A stretch of 64,000 bases of DNA, taken from assembly GCA_947628795.1 (NCBI GenBank), contig CANRBF010000024.1, positions 1-64,000 of the forward strand, read 5' to 3'. This DNA comes from an uncultured Monoglobus sp. GTDB taxonomy: Bacteria > Bacillota > Clostridia > Monoglobales > Monoglobaceae. Positions 1 through 48,852 of the stretch are shown piece by piece. A model generated the notes under the pieces. The model had not been told where the DNA came from. It saw only the letters and a program-made list of their open reading frames with translations, and made no database searches. Position 1 is the stretch's first letter. The number at the start of each line of letters is the position of its first letter. Both the position numbers and the translations under genes were made by a program.

Positions 1-124
1 TAAATCAAACATCACATGTCATCATCAGCAACTTTTTAAGTTTACCACATCTTTTTGACCTTGTCAAGAACTTTTTTAAACTTTTTTTAAAAATTTTCTC
101 GCGGCCTTATCCGCTGTGATAAAA

Positions 125-155
125 GGCTGCTCCTTACTTGGAACAGCCTAATCAT
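125..155 (-). terminator. Putative terminator downstream of the zinc-ribbon gene
   Basis: Read on the minus strand, a 9-base stem (arms at 140-148 and 125-133, one G-U pair) around a 6-base loop is followed by TTTT. It lies about 130 bases past the stop of the minus-strand zinc-ribbon gene. The rest of 1-278 is T-rich sequence in which I see no gene. Confidence 0.45.
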
Positions 156-278
156 ATTAACACCTTATTTTTGTTTTGTCAATACGCTTTTTACAACTTT
201 TTTCAACTTTTTCTTTTTTTATTAAAATTGCTGTATTGCGCCTTTCTTTAGGGCCTGCCGCCTTGTTACTTTCTACCA

Positions 279-836
279 TTAATAACGCCCGAGCATGCCG
301 CTCAAAAACGGTATGTTGAAGTTTTCGAGCGCGCCGCCGGCCCATCCGGCAACGTTTATTACCAATATATAAAGCAAGAACCCTATCACAAACCCCAGCA
401 GCGCCTTGAACAAAAGTCCCGCGATCGTACGCCCGATATGCTTCTCTTTGCGGATCGGCTTCGCCTTTTTTTGTTTGTACTGCTGCTTTGCCGCTTTTTT
501 CGCCTTGCGGGCGCGCTTATCCTCCGCTTCCGGATCGTATCTGTAATACTGTCTCTTGGGCTGTGGCGCGTGCTCAACGCGGCGGTTCACCTCGTCTCGG
601 ACCTGTCTGCTGCTCTCAAATCCGCCGGGCGCGCTCCTTCGCGGATAAACGCGCGTCTCGCCCGTATTGCTTTCCTCGGCATATCTCTCTTCCGAGGCCC
701 GCTCCCGCGGCTCGGGTTCCGGGTCGGGGAACAGCCGCGAATCCGGCCTTTTTCTCGGCGGCGTCAAAGCTGTGCCGCAATATTTGCAGATGCGCTCGTT
801 ATCTCCGACTTCTTTGCCGCAAAATTTACAAATCAT
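279..836 (-). CDS. Zinc-ribbon protein with a C-terminal membrane segment
   Basis: A protein of about 185 residues. It opens with a zinc-ribbon, CxxC-x12-CxxC (MICKFCGKEVG then ICKYCG), which binds a structural zinc ion. A long Pro/Arg/Lys/Glu-rich, probably disordered middle follows. Near the C-terminus a hydrophobic stretch (LLFKALLGFVIGFLLYILVI) is a probable membrane anchor. The open frame extends six codons further upstream, but the ATG at 836 is preferred because AGAAGGAG lies just upstream of it. Proteins of this layout are common and uncharacterised in Clostridia. The function is unknown; a membrane-tethered adaptor is only a guess. It is divergent from the vanR-like gene. Confidence 0.75.
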   Translation of the reverse strand: MICKFCGKEVGDNERICKYCGTALTPPRKRPDSRLFPDPEPEPRERASEERYAEESNTGETRVYPRRSAPGGFESSRQVRDEVNRRVEHAPQPKRQYYRYDPEAEDKRARKAKKAAKQQYKQKKAKPIRKEKHIGRTIAGLLFKALLGFVIGFLLYILVINVAGWAGGALENFNIPFLSGMLGRY

Positions 837-9049: not shown

Positions 9050-9425
9050 TGCCTCGCCCCTTGGGGAGAGGTGTCAGGCGAAGCCTGACGGAGAGGGGTC
9101 AACGTAGGTACTAGAGAATAGGATCTAGGGATTAGAAACCCCTCTCAGTCTGCGGACAAGCCGCAGCCAGCTCTCCCCAAGGGGCGAGCCTAATATAAAC
9201 CGTGAGATATTCCTAGTCTCTAGTCCCTATTTCCTAGTCCCTACGTTGGCAGCTCCCCCCGAGGGGGCGCCTTATTATTGCCTTCCCCTCAGTCAGCTGC
9301 GCTGACAGCATCAAGGAAGCTCTTGGTCAAAAATGCAAGCAATTTTGAAAGATAGCTTTGAACCCGCAAGCAAGCTTGCTGATTATCCCCGAGGGGGCGC
9401 CTTATTATTGCCGTCCTCTTATATT
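9050..9425. repeat. Mosaic of dispersed intergenic repeat modules
   Basis: No gene is visible. In order: a CTCGCCCCTTGGGGAGAG-type module with central stem GTCAGGC/GCCTGAC (about 9052-9098), heptamer-like repeats (9100-9137), the same GAGAGGGG module inverted with a different stem CTGCGG/CCGCAG (9138-9189), a heptamer array anchored by ACGTTG (9206-9247), two CCCCGAGGGGGCGCC modules (9253-9272, 9388-9407), and between them an inverted copy of the module also seen at 18843-18917 and 45386-45460. Confidence 0.75.
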
Positions 9426-9439
9426 ATCAAAACCTTTAT

Positions 9440-11029
9440 TTAATAATCATAATCAAAACTTCCGATCTTCTTTTCCGCGAACGGTATCATGCCGTCCGCG
9501 CTGTTCCAAACATATACTTCGACCGAGTTGACCAAGTTTCCGCCCAAATCAATGATCTTGTTGCTCACCGAACTTTCGGCGTTAAGCGTCTGTTTGGCCG
9601 GGACTGTCACGGTCTGAACGTCGGTTTTCGCAATACTTCCGTCAGCGTATTTATATACAAATATAACATCACAGCCTATATCCCGCGCGGCGAGATTTTC
9701 AAGCTCCGCATAAACCGTATGAACCAGCGACAAATTCTCGGTCGCGGTTTTGGTAATAACCCGTGTTTTTATAGGTATCTCCGGCTCCTTAGGCGTTGGC
9801 GTGGGCGGAGCAGGCGGTTCGGGAACAGTAAAACCTACCACATTGCTCATTTTACATTCAAACTCATTCGCCGCATCAACATATGCCTCATAATAACCCG
9901 GCGGAAGATTAATACTGTAATTATGTCCGGCTCCCCATTCTATGTGATAAGCATCGCCCTGATACACTTTATCTTTCCATATCTTAACATCATACCTGCT
10001 CTCACCGTACACTTCATTCCAATCAAAAGTAACCGTCGAATCGCTTTCATTTACATTTGCCGACAATGTAGCGGGCTTTAACTGAACGTCGTCTCCTTTA
10101 TATATTGCAAATATTTGCGCTCTTGAGTTATTTCTTTCAAATGTCGTCACAGGTGTCCCATCCGCGGTGTTATTGCTCGGCATATCCAATACTCTGTTTA
10201 AATCGGTGTAATGTTTTGACTTTATTACATAGCCGTTATCATATTGATAAATATACCACCTTTGATAATAACCTCCCCAATCTTCACTCGCTGCCGCTGT
10301 AGGATTTCCATTATCTGTAACTCCACAAAATACCTCTAATAACTTTTTATTGAGCACCGATGCGATTGTGTAACAACCGTCGGATTCACGCTTAAATTTC
10401 CATACTTGATTTGCGTATCCGTTCTCTTTTCCCAATTTTACAAAATTATCATCACAAACCTCTATTGGTTTCCAAGAATCTCTATGTAATATTACCGCAT
10501 AAAAGCTATCACCCAAATCAACCGGTGTTTCGCCGCCAAAATCCCCAATATAAATATATCCTTGAAAATGCAAACTTCCATAAACGCCGTTTTTAGGTAT
10601 TGTTACCATGCGCCAATATACGCCTCCGTAATTCGACTCGGAAATAGTAATATCGTTTCCGTTTATCGCCTCAACAACAGCAACGTGTCCCGTGTTATTA
10701 TCATAATGGTCCCAACACGCTATGGCTCCCAACTTAGGTTCCGAACCGTACGAATAATAACCGTTGTTAATATTATAATTCCACCATTTACCCGCGTTAC
10801 CGGTAGACAAACGCGGTTTGCTGCCCAAGAGTTCATAAGCTCTTCCCCAAGCATACGCTGTACAGTTTGGCATTCCAATACCGCTTTTATAAAAAATATT
10901 GTCCGAAAAATAATGGTAATCATTTGAACTCGGCGCAGAAGTTCTCGGAGTGAAATTTGCCGCTTGTACATTTGATCCAATACCAAACATTATAATAAAT
11001 GCAACACAAATACCTACCAACCTTTTCAT
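9440..11029 (-). CDS. Secreted CHAP-domain protein with a ricin-type lectin-like region
   Basis: About 529 residues from the ATG at 11029, chosen because GGAGG precedes it and a clean signal peptide begins there (MKRLVGICVAFIIMF, cleaved after VQA). The frame is open 29 codons further upstream without signals. The CHAP amidase/peptidase domain has the catalytic Cys in GMPNCTAYAWG and His in TGHVAVVEA. A ricin-B-type carbohydrate-binding region (about 180-310; YANQVWKF, YYQRWYI) follows, then a fibronectin-like segment, a Pro-rich linker, and a C-terminal domain with the motif VEVYVWNSADGMIPF. Likely a wall hydrolase or host/biofilm glycan-targeted enzyme outside the cell. A structured leader precedes it. 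Confidence 0.85.
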   Translation of the reverse strand: MKRLVGICVAFIIMFGIGSNVQAANFTPRTSAPSSNDYHYFSDNIFYKSGIGMPNCTAYAWGRAYELLGSKPRLSTGNAGKWWNYNINNGYYSYGSEPKLGAIACWDHYDNNTGHVAVVEAINGNDITISESNYGGVYWRMVTIPKNGVYGSLHFQGYIYIGDFGGETPVDLGDSFYAVILHRDSWKPIEVCDDNFVKLGKENGYANQVWKFKRESDGCYTIASVLNKKLLEVFCGVTDNGNPTAAASEDWGGYYQRWYIYQYDNGYVIKSKHYTDLNRVLDMPSNNTADGTPVTTFERNNSRAQIFAIYKGDDVQLKPATLSANVNESDSTVTFDWNEVYGESRYDVKIWKDKVYQGDAYHIEWGAGHNYSINLPPGYYEAYVDAANEFECKMSNVVGFTVPEPPAPPTPTPKEPEIPIKTRVITKTATENLSLVHTVYAELENLAARDIGCDVIFVYKYADGSIAKTDVQTVTVPAKQTLNAESSVSNKIIDLGGNLVNSVEVYVWNSADGMIPFAEKKIGSFDYDY

Positions 11030-11251
11030 ATATAAATACCTCCAAAATAAAAAATGTGCAGCTTGAAGTCCAAGCCACACATAAAAACGCAGCTGAGACT
11101 TTAAATGCTGCCACACATTTTAATTTTACAAGATCAAGACAATCGCCGTCTCCATTCAAGCAAGTCAAAGCATACGTTTTTTACAAAAATCGTATAGCTT
11201 AAATGGAGACAACAAAAAAGCAGTCATCTCGATCTTATTAAAATATGTGGC
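11030..11251 (-). promoter_or_regulatory. Attenuator-like structured leader of the CHAP gene
   Basis: A predicted 5' leader of about 220 bases. A long hairpin has 14-base arms at 11197-11210 and 11148-11161 (one G-U pair), with an inner ATACG/CGTAT stem. Just before the ribosome binding site is a terminator: GTGTGGCTTG pairs with CAAGCTGCAC (11071-11080 and 11056-11065, two G-U pairs), loop GACTT, then TTTTTTATTTT. Upstream GTGTGGCAGC could instead pair with GCTGCAC of the terminator, which offers an antiterminator. It matches no riboswitch class that I recognise. Confidence 0.6.
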
Positions 11252-11257
11252 ATAATC

Positions 11258-11339: not shown

Positions 11340-11595
11340 AGGATTCTCGACCGCCCAACAACTGCCTCCTCCCGGGAGGAGGTGGATTTCCGCCAAAGGC
11401 GGAAAGACGGAGGTGGGAACGTAGGGACTAGAAACCCCTCTCAGTCACCTACGGTGACAGCTCTCCCCAAGGGGCGAGCCCGACGGGACGGCGCCCTCGA
11501 CGTCCCACCGGGCGGATATTATCCGCCCGGTTGCCTCGCCCTCCGGGGAGGGAGAGGTGGCGCCGAAGGCGACGGAGAGGGAGGCAAACATCCCG
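11340..11595. repeat. Second mosaic of intergenic repeat modules
   Basis: No gene is visible. It contains an inverted CCTCCCGGGAGGAGG plus TTTCCGCC/GGCGGAAA module (about 11369-11415), a short heptamer piece (11418-11434), an inverted GAGAGGGG module with central stem GTCACC/GGTGAC (11434-11479), the palindrome CCGGGCGGATATTATCCGCC (near 11510-11532), and a CTCCGGGGAGGGAGAGGTGG variant (11536-11584). Confidence 0.75.
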
Positions 11596-41424: not shown

Positions 41425-42120
41425 CTAAGCTTCTAATCTGTTCGCGGCAATTTTAACGCCGGGACCCATCGTTGACGCGATAGTCACGGACCTCAAATAA
41501 ATACCTTTCGCTGCCGCGGGCTTCGCTTTTATGATAGCACTCATCAGAACCTTGAAGTTCTCCTTGAGTTTATCGGGGCCGAATGAAGCCTTGCCTATGG
41601 GACAGTGGATAATATTCGCCTTATCCAGTCTGTACTCGATTTTACCGGCCTTAGCCTCCTGAACGGCTTTTGCCACATCGGGAGTAACGGTGCCGGCCTT
41701 GGGGTTAGGCATAAGTCCCTTAGGACCGAGTATTCTACCGATCCTGCCGACAACGCCCATCATATCGGGGCTTGCGATGGCAACATCGAAATCAAACCAG
41801 TTTTCTGTCTGGATCTTTTGAGCCATATCCTCGGCTCCAACATAATCGGCGCCCGCCGCTTTCGCGGCCTCCGCCTTATCATCGCGGGCGAACACGAGGA
41901 CCTTAACGTCCTTACCCGTTCCGTTGGGGAGAACAACGGCTCCTCTTACCTGCTGATCTGCGTGTCTTGAGTCAACGCCCAGCTTCGCGTGAAGCTCGAT
42001 CGTCTCGTCAAACTTAGCGGTAGCCGTCTTGCAAACCAGCTTAAGCGCCTCATCGGGATCGTACAGCTTGCCCTTTTCAATGAGCTTCACCGCGTCCTGA
42101 TATTTTTTACCTTTCTTCAT
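41425..42120 (-). CDS. rplA: Ribosomal protein L1
   Basis: A 231-residue protein of normal length ([29 protein letters not shown]-type motif as [14 protein letters not shown]). AAGGAGG precedes it. It forms the mobile L1 stalk and in other bacteria also represses its own operon. Confidence 0.97.
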
Positions 42121-45115: not shown

Positions 45116-45522
45116 ATAAAAGGCTCCCCTTCTTTTAGGAGGGAGAGCTGCCAACGTAGTGATTAGTAATTAGAGAATAGTGACTACGCGAAGATAGTTT
45201 GAAAAAAATCGTTCGTATTTCCCCGCGAACGTAGGAGTCAGGCTCGCCCCTTGGAGAGAGCTGTCAGCAAAGCTGACTGAGAGGGGTGGTCTAGTCCCTA
45301 TGTTCTCACCTCCGTCTTTTCGCCAAAGGCGAAAATCCACTTCCTCCCGAGAGGAGGCAAAATATAGGCGCCCCCTCGGGGATAATTAGCAAGCTTGCTT
45401 GCGGGTTCAAAGCTATCTTTCAAAATTGCTTGCAATTTTGACTAAGAGCTTCCTTAATGCTGTCGGGCAAAGCCCGGCTGAGGGGGATCCTATGTTCCTA
45501 GTTACTATTCCCTAGTCCCTAT
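45116..45522. repeat. Largest mosaic of intergenic repeat modules
   Basis: In order: a partial GGAGGGAGAGCTG piece, a heptamer array after CAACGTAG (45152-45186), a GAGAGGGG module with stem GTCAGC/GCTGAC (45240-45288), a short heptamer piece, a CACCTCCGTC module with stem TTTTCGCC/GGCGAAAA (45306-45358), a GGCGCCCCCTCGGGG module (45365-45380), the module with stem CAAAATTGC/GCAATTTTG (45386-45460), and a final heptamer array (45490-45522) that touches the 3' end of the next gene. Confidence 0.8.
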
Positions 45523-45758
45523 TTTATCGCATACTTCAAAATCTTCCTGCAATTTTCACACAGCGATATATTATCAAATTTTTCAAGACCTTTTTCTTTT
45601 CCGCAGTTGGCGCATCTCGGCGTAAGCCTGAACAGTGACACTCCGATCCCGTCGGGCAGAGGCAGCATGTTGGCCTCGGAATCAGTCTTTAGGTTAAACT
45701 CTTCCCTATATTTTTTGGGAATGGTTATTCTTTCTATAGAATCAATTTTGACGATCAT
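45519..45758 (-). CDS. AbrB/SpoVT-like regulator with a C-terminal zinc ribbon
   Basis: A 79-residue protein. Residues 1-45 match the swapped-hairpin AbrB/MazE DNA-binding domain (DSIERITIPKKYREEFNL). Residues about 49-75 have CANCGKE and CENCRK, a four-Cys zinc ribbon. GGAGG lies 8 bases before the ATG. It is a probable dimeric transition-state-type transcription factor with targets unknown. The mRNA has a structured 190-base leader with a terminator, so the gene is probably controlled by attenuation. The last codons abut a repeat array. Confidence 0.8.
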   Translation of the reverse strand: MIVKIDSIERITIPKKYREEFNLKTDSEANMLPLPDGIGVSLFRLTPRCANCGKEKGLEKFDNISLCENCRKILKYAIK

Positions 45759-45952
45759 AATAATACCTCCGTAAATTTAAGTAAAATAAAAAGGCGCGAA
45801 GCATAGCGCCGCGCCCAAAAACGCTATGCTCATGATGGCCAAATCATTTATTTTACACATACCATTCTACATGCTAAAATTGAGCACGCATTTTTGACAA
45901 TGCAAAAATGCACATAGAATGATATTAATAATAATTTTAAAATGATTTGGCA
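45759..45952 (-). promoter_or_regulatory. Structured leader RNA with mutually exclusive hairpins
   Basis: From the predicted start near 45952 the RNA opens with GCCAAATCATTT, which pairs with AAATGATTTGGC (45940-45951 with 45838-45849). Inside are UAUCAUUCUA/UAGAAUGGUA (one G-U pair) and GCATTTTTG/CAAAAATGC. After this closed domain comes hairpin A (AGCATAGCG/CGCTATGCT, 45822-45830 with 45800-45808). Overlapping it is hairpin B (GGCGCG/CGCGCC, 45810-45815 with 45793-45798), followed by TTTTTATTTT. Hairpin A occupies the loop of B and the reverse, so they exclude each other: a terminator switch. No known riboswitch class is recognised. Confidence 0.65.
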
Positions 45953-45958
45953 ATTTTT

Positions 45959-45987
45959 ATTATATCACAGCCCGCAACATAAGTAAA
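45959..45987 (-). promoter_or_regulatory. Extended -10 promoter of the AbrB-like leader
   Basis: Minus strand TGATATAAT (complement of 45959-45967) with a weak -35 TTTACT (complement of 45982-45987) at a 17-base spacer. The predicted first base falls at the start of the outer stem. Confidence 0.65.
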
Positions 45988-46248: not shown

Positions 46249-46370
46249 ACGGGCGGATATTATCCGCCACTACATTATTATGTAAATCATAGTCGTAGGG
46301 GACGACGGCCCCGGCGTCTCGGCTCGCCCCTTGGGGAGAGCTGTCAGCGAAGCTGACTGAGAGGGGTTTT
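46249..46370. repeat. Intergenic repeat modules before the tRNA array
   Basis: Palindrome GGCGGATATTATCCGCC (46262-46278), a GTAGGGGACGACGGCCCCGG piece (46303-46318), and a GAGAGGGG module with stem GTCAGC/GCTGAC (46320-46367). Confidence 0.75.
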
Positions 46371-46474: not shown

Positions 46475-46563
46475 GCCGGAGTGGCGGAACTGGCAGACGC
46501 CCGGGACTTAAAATCCCGTGGGATTAATTTCCCGTACCGGTTCGATTCCGGTCTCCGGCACCA
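46475..46563 (+). tRNA. tRNA-Leu(TAA)
   Basis: An 89-base class II tRNA with a long variable arm (GTGGGATTAATTTCCC). Acceptor GCCGGAG/CTCCGGC, encoded CCA, and anticodon stem CGGGA/TCCCG with anticodon TAA. Confidence 0.95.
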
Positions 46564-46570
46564 GATATAT

Positions 46571-46647
<77 letters not shown>

Positions 46648-46661
46648 CATTATTTATATAC

Positions 46662-46737
46662 GGGGCATTAGCGCAGCTGGGAGCGCACAACACTGGCAGT
46701 GTTGGGGTCAGGGGTTCGAATCCCCTATGCTCCACCA
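46662..46737 (+). tRNA. tRNA-Ala(GGC)
   Basis: A 76-base cloverleaf. Anticodon stem CAACA/TGTTG with anticodon GGC. Acceptor GGGGCAT/ATGCTCC carries the G3-U70 alanine identity pair, and CCA is encoded. Its 3' half is a plausible attachment site for the integrase encoded next to it. Confidence 0.94.
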
Positions 46738-46770
46738 AACCCCGCAAGCCGCGAGCTTACGGGGTTTTCT
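46738..46770 (+). terminator. Terminator of the tRNA array
   Basis: AACCCCGCAAGC pairs with GCTTACGGGGTT (one mismatch), followed by TTTT. Confidence 0.8.
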
Positions 46771-46826
46771 AATGTATTTATTAATCTTTAAAATCTAAAA
46801 TTATCGGTTTTATTATTATAAGTATA

Positions 46827-46932
46827 TTATAAGGAATTTCAAAAATTTAAGACTTTATTTCTTTAAATTTATCATCAAAAATTCATCTGAATTTTATTTT
46901 TTCCTTATAATTTTCCTTATAACGACGATAAA
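46827..46932. repeat. TTCCTTATAA repeats near the integrase end
   Basis: Direct copies at 46911-46920 and 46923-46932 and an inverted copy (TTATAAGGAA) at 46827-46836 lie between the tRNA-Ala gene and the integrase. The layout resembles arm-type binding sites of tyrosine integrases or excisionases. The surrounding sequence is otherwise AT-rich and without a gene. Confidence 0.5.
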
Positions 46933-46993
46933 ACGAAGTAATATAAAAAGGGATAAAATAAAGCTGAAAAGATGTTTTTTTATTCTTTTAAAT

Positions 46994-48196
46994 TTACATA
47001 CTCATATATTCCGCTATCCTGTTCATTTCTTCATTTTGAAGTTCGGGCAGAACGTGCATATATGTGTCCATAGTGATTTGAACGCTTGCGTGACCTAAAA
47101 TCTTGCTCACAACTTTAACAGGCACGCCTGCTTCCAATGCTCGGGTAGCGAAAGTATGTCGAAGAGCATGAAAGGTATGACGGGATATTCCAGCTTTTTC
47201 TAATAATCTTTGATATCGCTCTCTAAAATAAACGGGATCAATATAATATCCGTCTTCACGAGCAAATACCATATCTAAATTCTGATAAGCAGAACCCCAC
47301 TTTTTTATATTTTTATCTTGTTCTTCTTTATATTGAATCAGCCGTTCCAACAAATTATCACTAATGCTTATTACTCTTGTTGATGTTCTTGTTTTTGTAT
47401 CTTCTTGAATACCTAATCTTGTTTTGGCTGTTGCGTTAGGACTATAATCATGCAGCCTGTTTACTTGTCTTGAAATATTGATTGTTTTCTTATTAAAATC
47501 AACGTCTTTCCACATAATGCCGAGTAATTCGCCTAATCTTACTCCTGTATGTAAAGCTGTAAAAATTCCCATACCGTAGGGAGAGTTATCACATACTTTC
47601 ATCAAAGCCTTTTGTTCTTCTTTGGACAATATCTCAATTTCTTTCTTTTCGGTGTTTGTGCTTTTTAATGTAGGCACTTTAGCTATTGAAGCGGGATTCT
47701 GTAATATATATTCATTTTCTAAAGCTGTTTGTAATGCCTTATGCAAGCAAACTCTTATATTGTTTATTGTCTTAACACTCAAACCGCCTTTTCCGTCTGC
47801 TCTGCCGCTTATCAGTAAAGTATTATACATCTGCTCTATATCTGTCTTTTTTAATTTCGTCAATTTTATGCGCCCGATGTAAGGAATTAATTGATTTTTA
47901 ACTATTCCTTCATAAGCTATTCTTGTAGAAGTCTTGACATTTTGAACCACGTATGTATCTAACCACTTATTGAGCCATTGTTCAACTGTATATTTACATA
48001 CAATTTCGGGTGTTAAAGCCTTTTTATTTGCTTTATAATCATTCAATTTTCTTGTTACTTCATTGCGAGTTTTTGAACTGAATGTCTTATATTTGGGTTT
48101 GCCTTTTTCGTTGTAACCTATCATAATGCGAGCTTCCCAGTAGCCTTCTTTGGTTTGAAGAATGCAGCCCTCTCCGTTTCCGCGTTTTTTTGACAT
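46994..48196 (-). CDS. int: Tyrosine integrase
   Basis: A 400-residue site-specific recombinase. An AP2-like arm-binding N-terminus (GNGEGCILQTKEGYWEARI) is followed by a SAM-like core-binding domain and the catalytic domain with Arg in TGVRLGELLGIMWKD, His-x-x-Arg in FHALRHTFATRALEAG, His in ILGHASVQ and nucleophile Tyr in DTYMHVLPEL. It is intact and of normal length for integrases of integrative conjugative elements and phages. It lies 256 bases from tRNA-Ala with its 3' end toward it, consistent with a left attachment end. The matching right end is not in the window. Confidence 0.93.
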   Translation of the reverse strand: MSKKRGNGEGCILQTKEGYWEARIMIGYNEKGKPKYKTFSSKTRNEVTRKLNDYKANKKALTPEIVCKYTVEQWLNKWLDTYVVQNVKTSTRIAYEGIVKNQLIPYIGRIKLTKLKKTDIEQMYNTLLISGRADGKGGLSVKTINNIRVCLHKALQTALENEYILQNPASIAKVPTLKSTNTEKKEIEILSKEEQKALMKVCDNSPYGMGIFTALHTGVRLGELLGIMWKDVDFNKKTINISRQVNRLHDYSPNATAKTRLGIQEDTKTRTSTRVISISDNLLERLIQYKEEQDKNIKKWGSAYQNLDMVFAREDGYYIDPVYFRERYQRLLEKAGISRHTFHALRHTFATRALEAGVPVKVVSKILGHASVQITMDTYMHVLPELQNEEMNRIAEYMSM

Positions 48197-48258
48197 AATG
48201 TTACCTCTTATTTGATAATAGAATTGTAATCAATGTTGTATAAATTATGTGTAATATA

Positions 48259-48852
48259 TTATTTTTCTACCAAATCCAAATATTTATATATTGTCGGGTA
48301 GCTTAATCCGCATACTCTGGCAAATGCGGCTTTATTCAGCTTGCCTTCTTTATATTGCGGATAATATTTATAAAATATCTTCGGGATATCATCTTTGCTT
48401 GTTCTCGGTCTGCCTAACACAGAGCCTTTTGCTTTCGCGTTCTCAAGTCCGCTCTTTACTCTTGCGCTGATCAGATTTCTTTCAAGCTCGGCGAAAACTC
48501 CAGCCATTTGCAAAAATGATTTTGTCATCGGGTCTATATCGCCTTCCGAGCAGTCGATAGTGACAGAGCCTTTTATAACTAATTTCAAGCCCTTGTCTTT
48601 TATTAACTGTATTATATCACACAACTGCTTTGTTGAGCGTGTCAATCTCGATACTTCGGTTGTCACTATAGTGTCTCCACGATGTACTGTGTTCAGCAGC
48701 TTATTAAATTCGGGTCTATCTGTCTTTGTTCCGCTCTCGTACTCAAAATAAATCGTTTCATCGGCTGCTCCCAATTCTTTAAGCTCACGCTTCTGACGAT
48801 TAATATCCTGCAATTCTTCATTAGTTGAACATCTTGCATATCCGTAAATCAT
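48259..48852 (-). CDS. Serine recombinase (resolvase/invertase family)
   Basis: A 197-residue protein. The catalytic domain has the nucleophile Ser in YGYARCSTNEELQ, and Arg residues in VSRLTRSTKQL. The helix E region AELERNLISARVKSGLENAKAKG leads to a helix-turn-helix (FARVCGLSYPTIYKYL). It cuts and rejoins DNA at short res or inversion sites. It is adjacent to the integrase on the same strand, probably serving element resolution or an invertible segment. No inverted repeat pair was found beside it. Confidence 0.9.
   Translation of the reverse strand: MIYGYARCSTNEELQDINRQKRELKELGAADETIYFEYESGTKTDRPEFNKLLNTVHRGDTIVTTEVSRLTRSTKQLCDIIQLIKDKGLKLVIKGSVTIDCSEGDIDPMTKSFLQMAGVFAELERNLISARVKSGLENAKAKGSVLGRPRTSKDDIPKIFYKYYPQYKEGKLNKAAFARVCGLSYPTIYKYLDLVEK

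Follow-up and report, generated by a model that had tools for sequence, protein, structure and literature searches.

The minus-strand leader (202 nt) of a gene for a 79-amino-acid protein in the window, that is, the whole 64,000-nucleotide stretch of Monoglobus sp. DNA that was analysed, is probably one copy of an undescribed family of riboswitch-like, cis-acting transcription attenuators, a reading drawn from sequence comparison. The initial annotation had described an extended -10 promoter, a 12-base outer stem enclosing inner stems, a 9-base hairpin competing with a 6-base GC terminator and its T-run, and a ribosome binding site and AbrB/zinc-ribbon gene after the T-run; all of these elements are present on the minus strand, the two hairpins to the base (Table 1). 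The predicted folding energy of the leader is -59.2 kcal/mol, far below that of shuffled sequences (z = -4.4; 0 of 200 as good), and its terminator and antiterminator hairpins are nearly equal in energy, with ensemble probabilities of 0.58 and 0.40, respectively. The cysteines of the CxxC-x14-CxxC ribbon were read from the protein sequence, and the match of the protein to the AbrB domain model TIGR01439 is weak (E 1e-4, below the model cut-off), its paralogues matching the same model above the cut-off. Three features were absent from the initial annotation: a long-range pairing between motif M and switch strand S, the wide spread of the RNA outside AbrB genes, and another copy elsewhere in the window.

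Table 1. Coordinates of the two leader copies in the window, their parts and the genes behind them.
Feature	Position	Strand	Details
Leader of the 79-aa gene, whole		-	202 nt
Extended -10 promoter	45959..45987	-	TTTACT, 17 nt, TGnTATAAT
-35-like TTTACT	45987-45982	-	17 nt before the extended -10 TGATATAAT, which ends at 45959
Putative sensor domain, closed by P1	45838..45951	-	From folding and covariation
P1, outer stem	45951-45940 : 45849-45838	-	12 bp
P2 with apical hairpin P3, region	45863..45921	-	
P2	45921-45910 : 45874-45863	-	
P3, apical hairpin	45909-45903 : 45896-45890	-	
Motif M	45881..45895	-	AAAAATGCGTGCTCA; forms the 3' strand of P3 and an unpaired tail; pairs with S
Switch strand S	45817..45832	-	TGAGCATAGCGTTTTT; partner is M or the antiterminator segment
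Antiterminator hairpin, region	45800..45830	-	
Antiterminator stem	45830-45822 : 45808-45800	-	9 bp; AGCATAGCG : CGCTATGCT
Intrinsic terminator with T-run, region	45783..45815	-	
Terminator stem	45815-45810 : 45798-45793	-	GGCGCG : CGCGCC
T-run	45792-45783	-	TTTTTATTTT; directly after the terminator stem
Ribosome binding site	45770-45766	-	GGAGG; ATG at 45758
Gene for the 79-aa protein	45519..45758	-	AbrB-type N-terminal domain and CxxC-x14-CxxC zinc ribbon
Second RNA copy	11050..11253	-	M AAAAACGTATGCTTTGAC, S GTCTCAGCTGCGTTTTT
Gene behind the second copy	9440..11029	-	529-aa secreted protein, CHAP and ricin-B lectin domains

Five strands are predicted to make a relay of exclusive pairings, P3-5' : M : S : T5' : T3'. 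M, which provides the 3' strand of P3, is complementary to S just before the terminator, and S can instead pair with the 5' segment of the terminator. Across the leaders of AbrB genes M is the most constant stretch (AAAAAYGCRYGCUY) and S, between the closing stem and the terminator, is the second (NNRAGC-n-GCGUUUUU); the two are complementary, with matching changes, in every leader where both could be located. The M:S duplex of the window leader amounts to -15.8 kcal/mol. When the constant A5/U5 was excluded, M:S reached -11.7 kcal/mol with own partners and -8.1 kcal/mol with swapped partners (26 distinct pairs), and 0 of 20000 permutations were as good. The comparison of own with swapped partners was also made with 5000 permutations in 57 leaders less than 75% identical to each other, and all four pairings of the relay were better than swaps in every permutation (0/5000), with z values of -7 for P3, -11.6 for M:S, -8.5 for S:T5' with its loop and -17.8 for T5':T3'; these permutations take no account of shared ancestry, which did not, however, lift the within-family controls. 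For the control pairings M:T5' (z -1.1) and M:T3' (z 0.4), own partners were not better than swapped ones in the same 57 leaders, and the difference for S:T3' was weak (z -2.9).

Collecting homologous leaders and building a covariance model, the check that the initial annotation had proposed, disclosed strong covariation, the absence of which the annotation had named as speaking against its reading. The first model (R1) was made from 24 AbrB leaders and contains only P1, P2, P3 and the terminator; M:S was left out and never fitted, so its appearance among the hits constitutes a blind test. Both motifs were present and pairing in 99 of 101 R1 hits, M not being found by the motif search in the other 2. 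M:S was paired in 92-98% of cells, with changes on both sides; pair counting on 98 distinct sequences gave 93.4% of cells paired, with 690 cells altered in both partners. None of 500 shuffles was as good, and sliding the pairing lowered the value to 35-53%. P1 was 98% paired with compensatory changes at all 11 modelled pairs, and P2 was 88% paired with compensatory changes in 7 of 7 pairs (98 distinct sequences each), counts that lean on the covariance model since it fitted both stems; P1 is also visible in a structure-free MAFFT alignment. Plain MAFFT failed to align P2, though it did align P1, M, S and the terminator, and the covariance-model alignment was therefore used. The S:T5' hairpin, with U5 as its loop, has an energy of -6 kcal/mol or lower in 57/57 representatives (mean -13.3 kcal/mol) and is aligned by position only in part (54.7 and 86.7% of cells) because its register varies. 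Masking M and S as if paired brought the terminator probability of the window leader to 1.0 and raised the mean number of terminator pairs in the 57 representatives from 5.4 to 9.7. The pairing tests and the ensemble both back the earlier description of terminator and antiterminator as mutually exclusive in a riboswitch-like layout. Like riboswitches, the leaders have a conserved, structured 5' UTR sensor with covariation and mutually exclusive structures in the expression platform.

Comparative analysis brings out the alternative pairings, their conservation and their layout: from the promoter the RNA begins at P1, the P1-P2-P3 domain displays M, and S, the terminator and the gene follow. What we infer is a race between the pairings as the RNA is transcribed, its outcome chosen by an effector, and the direction of that choice. 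An M strand left unpaired at the moment S is made would capture S, leaving T5' free to form the terminator, and transcription would stop; if M is held in P3, S would pair with T5' once this is made, the terminator would not form, and the gene would be read. An effector favouring one form of the P1-P3 domain would decide the outcome, with the conserved unpaired AAUA/AA and CAA near P1 as candidate contact sites. The leader appears to work like a riboswitch-type attenuator, for which the name riboswitch awaits a ligand. The effector is most likely a small molecule, and the conserved unpaired nucleotides are few for a small-molecule pocket. This scarcity, the near-equal energies of the 3' states and the fact that on/off heterogeneity commonly affects surface proteins would also suit a ligand-free attenuator, in which temperature, transcription speed or NTP level sets the folding or surface genes are turned on and off at random. 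That alternative is nevertheless rather improbable, given an AAUA/AA loop and a CAA linker that are conserved outside the relay strands and a sequence-conserved core across 55 genera, which suggests recognition.

Searches with R1 found 18 copies in the window genome, and a second covariance model (R2) gave the same 18. The second copy in the window was found with E values of 1.5e-6 (R1) and 2.9e-9 (R2), and its M:S duplex amounts to -17.9 kcal/mol. Four further genes for the 79-aa protein, with 94, 82, 77 and 37% amino-acid identity, are present in the window genome, each behind a leader of the same layout with different stem sequences, and homologues of the protein occur in 31 of 60 related genomes, many of them, across genera, with such a leader. 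Within the family, R1 detected the RNA in 35 of 38 genomes, with up to 34 copies per genome. In samples of the class Clostridia the RNA was detected in 81 of 341 genomes by R1 and in 95 of 381 genomes (about one quarter) by R2, the latter from 55 of 217 genera, and in a covariance search of a phylum-wide sample of 299 genomes only the window's own genome was positive (0/298 others). The named carriers, almost all metagenome-assembled genomes, include Monoglobus sp., Oscillospiraceae and other Clostridia MAGs, and Candidatus Avimonoglobus; one carrier record labelled Bacteroides is probably mis-binned. The only genome of the window's genus that was sampled as one complete contig (G008) had no match, which together with the predominance of MAGs among the carriers may explain why the RNA was overlooked.

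In agreement with the initial annotation, which had recognised no known class, a scan of 29 sources with Rfam 15 placed no family at the RNA above the gathering cut-off and none of weight at a relaxed E-value. The same scan did find an L10 leader in the window at 41389-41243 on the minus strand, just downstream of a ribosomal protein gene (41425-42120). No description of the RNA was found in the literature or in the surveys PMC8040213, PMC8632094 and PMC11109978, supplementary tables aside; the first of these reports 3161 structured-RNA candidates, and an unnamed entry for this RNA is possible among them.

The promoter (TTG, about 17 nt, TGnTATAnT) belongs to the module: it precedes P1 at a constant spacing in 129 of 131 first copies, and in 16 of 18 inner copies of tandem arrays. 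Such arrays consist of two or three units, and triple ones were seen at L085, L141, L019 and L171; because most inner units keep a promoter of their own, they differ from plain aptamer arrays that share a single transcript. Promoter and terminator at nearly every copy, inner ones included, could indicate that the unit is an independent small RNA gene acting in trans or as a decoy, its downstream genes often being read by leakage only, and some copies with no gene behind them still keep M:S. Three results make such a gene improbable: an SD-led ORF follows on the same strand within 110 nt in 90 of the 117 copies with room for one; the antiterminator S:T5', needless for a plain small RNA, occurs in all 57 representatives; and changes in M track the S strand within each copy rather than some constant target elsewhere. 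Eight loci (L086, L088, L094, L114, L121, L131, L132 and L133) have no recognisable ORF in the next 260 nt, and M:S pairing is kept in those checked. Copies of this kind (e.g., L088, L132, L133) are not accounted for by cis-attenuation alone and are possibly small RNAs, decoys or relics.

The initial annotation had named copies away from the AbrB gene, in a MITE or a known repeat family, as an observation that would speak against a riboswitch-like leader. Copies away from that gene do exist, whereas their kept pairing, promoter and orientation to genes are not those of a MITE. The many copies per genome and a pair of identical copies separated by about 930 bp (C6:116935 and 117865) are what a promoter-carrying repeat landing before genes by chance might leave behind. 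Such an element is, however, highly improbable: ORFs lie in the downstream direction at 90 copies and in the mirror direction at 7, all helices show compensatory evolution, and copies occur across 55 genera. We likewise rejected a phage or plasmid origin, since the exact 23-base core pattern was absent from IMG/VR viral contigs and BLAST matched the leader to none of the phage or plasmid records.

Assigned to classes by simple rules, the 93 distinct downstream ORFs comprise 22 AbrB/zinc-ribbon genes, 37 with a signal-peptide or lipoprotein-like start and 34 others. The tie to AbrB/zinc-ribbon genes that the initial annotation had assumed therefore does not hold for the family, and an AbrB-only autoregulatory leader was rejected because most copies precede other genes, mainly for secreted proteins. 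Among 69 downstream proteins, Pfam identified BspA LRR_5 repeats in 14, MazE/AbrB in 8 and a copper amine oxidase N-terminal domain in 4, and also found SLH, CHAP, dockerin and fn3 domains and single trypsin-like and CAP proteins; NCBIfam added LRR adhesins and an HtrA-type protease. Small families also recur behind the RNA in distant genomes, namely NIKVELLKNYISDF, the Cys-rich IIDITGIELVPGNHGKDCPGN and an FGH-type family. The Cys-rich family (IIDITGIELVPGNHGKDCPGN...CCCDECNY) was seen at L111, L127, L170 and L197, and its member at L127 had no Pfam match. No biosynthesis or transport theme pointing to a ligand emerged from the downstream genes. Zinc, the first metal proposed in the initial annotation, found no support in the form of metal transport genes: a zinc or metal riboswitch is not favoured because genes for metal transport or homeostasis are not among the listed downstream proteins, which offer in this respect only the AbrB zinc ribbon and the small Cys-rich proteins. 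The target set, mainly secreted and surface proteins and AbrB-type regulators, suggests a global physiological signal, not a metabolite of one pathway.

The share of AbrB/zinc-ribbon genes among the targets (22/93) and the presence of up to six paralogues per genome in the window's genus, several with their own leader, raise the alternative that the same relay attenuator is governed by an RNA-binding protein, for example the AbrB/zinc-ribbon protein controlling its own mRNA and regulon, or another protein that binds the leader. Protein-sensing leaders are a known kind. The leader stem sequences vary freely, however, and four high-copy genomes, G014 (20 RNA copies), G028 (11), G031 (9) and G019 (9), have no AbrB/zinc-ribbon match at E 1e-3, so a protein effector is unlikely overall, and the AbrB/zinc-ribbon protein as universal effector was rejected on the latter ground. 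Only this subfamily is thereby excluded, given that AbrB-domain proteins overall (TIGR01439) occur in 31 of 32 genomes; TIGR01439 cannot discriminate here because other AbrB-domain proteins match almost everywhere.

The preferred attenuator reading invites comparison with known regulatory RNAs. Terminating tandem riboswitches (glycine, c-di-GMP-I) are alike in having a sensor, an exclusive terminator and antiterminator, a gene directly downstream and tandem copies, but they have no sequence or covariance match to this RNA, in which nearly every copy, inner ones too, starts from a promoter of its own at constant spacing, an uncommon trait in riboswitches generally, and in which M, a strand of the sensor, is the direct pairing partner of switch strand S. 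Surface proteins are frequent targets of c-di-GMP riboswitches in Clostridia. The c-di-GMP-I class (RF01051) is also present in the window genome, and also in tandem, yet its matches fall on separate loci in L002 only and never on the leader RNA; three tandem copies were seen there (1-444, minus strand), near the C6 paralogue. We rejected c-di-GMP as the ligand because 11 of 32 high-copy genomes, near-complete ones included, have no GGDEF match at E 1e-3, some of the assemblies being incomplete. T-box leaders likewise combine terminator and antiterminator in Clostridia, sometimes in tandem, but no Rfam T-box model matches this RNA, and its downstream genes are not amino-acid or tRNA genes. The preQ1 and SAM-II pseudoknot switches likewise pair a sensor loop with downstream sequence; here the pseudoknot strand S is the antiterminator strand too, size and sequence differ, and there is no Rfam match. 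Ribosomal protein leaders (L10_leader, RF00557) are also structured leaders before a gene for a small nucleic-acid-binding protein, whereas this RNA precedes many unrelated genes and has no Rfam match.

If the attenuator reading is right, about one in four of the Clostridia genomes sampled carries a member of a large RNA family that Rfam lacks and that is abundant in gut MAGs. Adhesins, cell-wall enzymes and AbrB regulators would then belong to one regulon, and this would point to a new signal. The relay is explicit base by base and is thus directly testable by compensatory mutants. A bolder proposal, which we put forward tentatively and with some doubt, is that the RNA is a new riboswitch class for an unnamed, possibly new signalling ligand, serving mostly uncultured Clostridia as a global cell-surface switch through self-contained promoter-switch-terminator cassettes; genomes carry as many as 34 of these, and those standing alone would act in trans, as sensors or decoys.

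Two further features of the window stand apart from this RNA. A dispersed repeat (GCCCCTTGGRGAGAGCTGTCAGC...) that flanks this locus has five copies in the window (45246-45268, 46326-46348, 9056-9078, 9163-9185 and 11453-11475), with none expected by chance. Finally, at 46475-48852 three tRNA genes lie beside a tyrosine integrase (46994-48196) and a serine recombinase (48259-48852), and this region is likely a tRNA-integrated mobile element.
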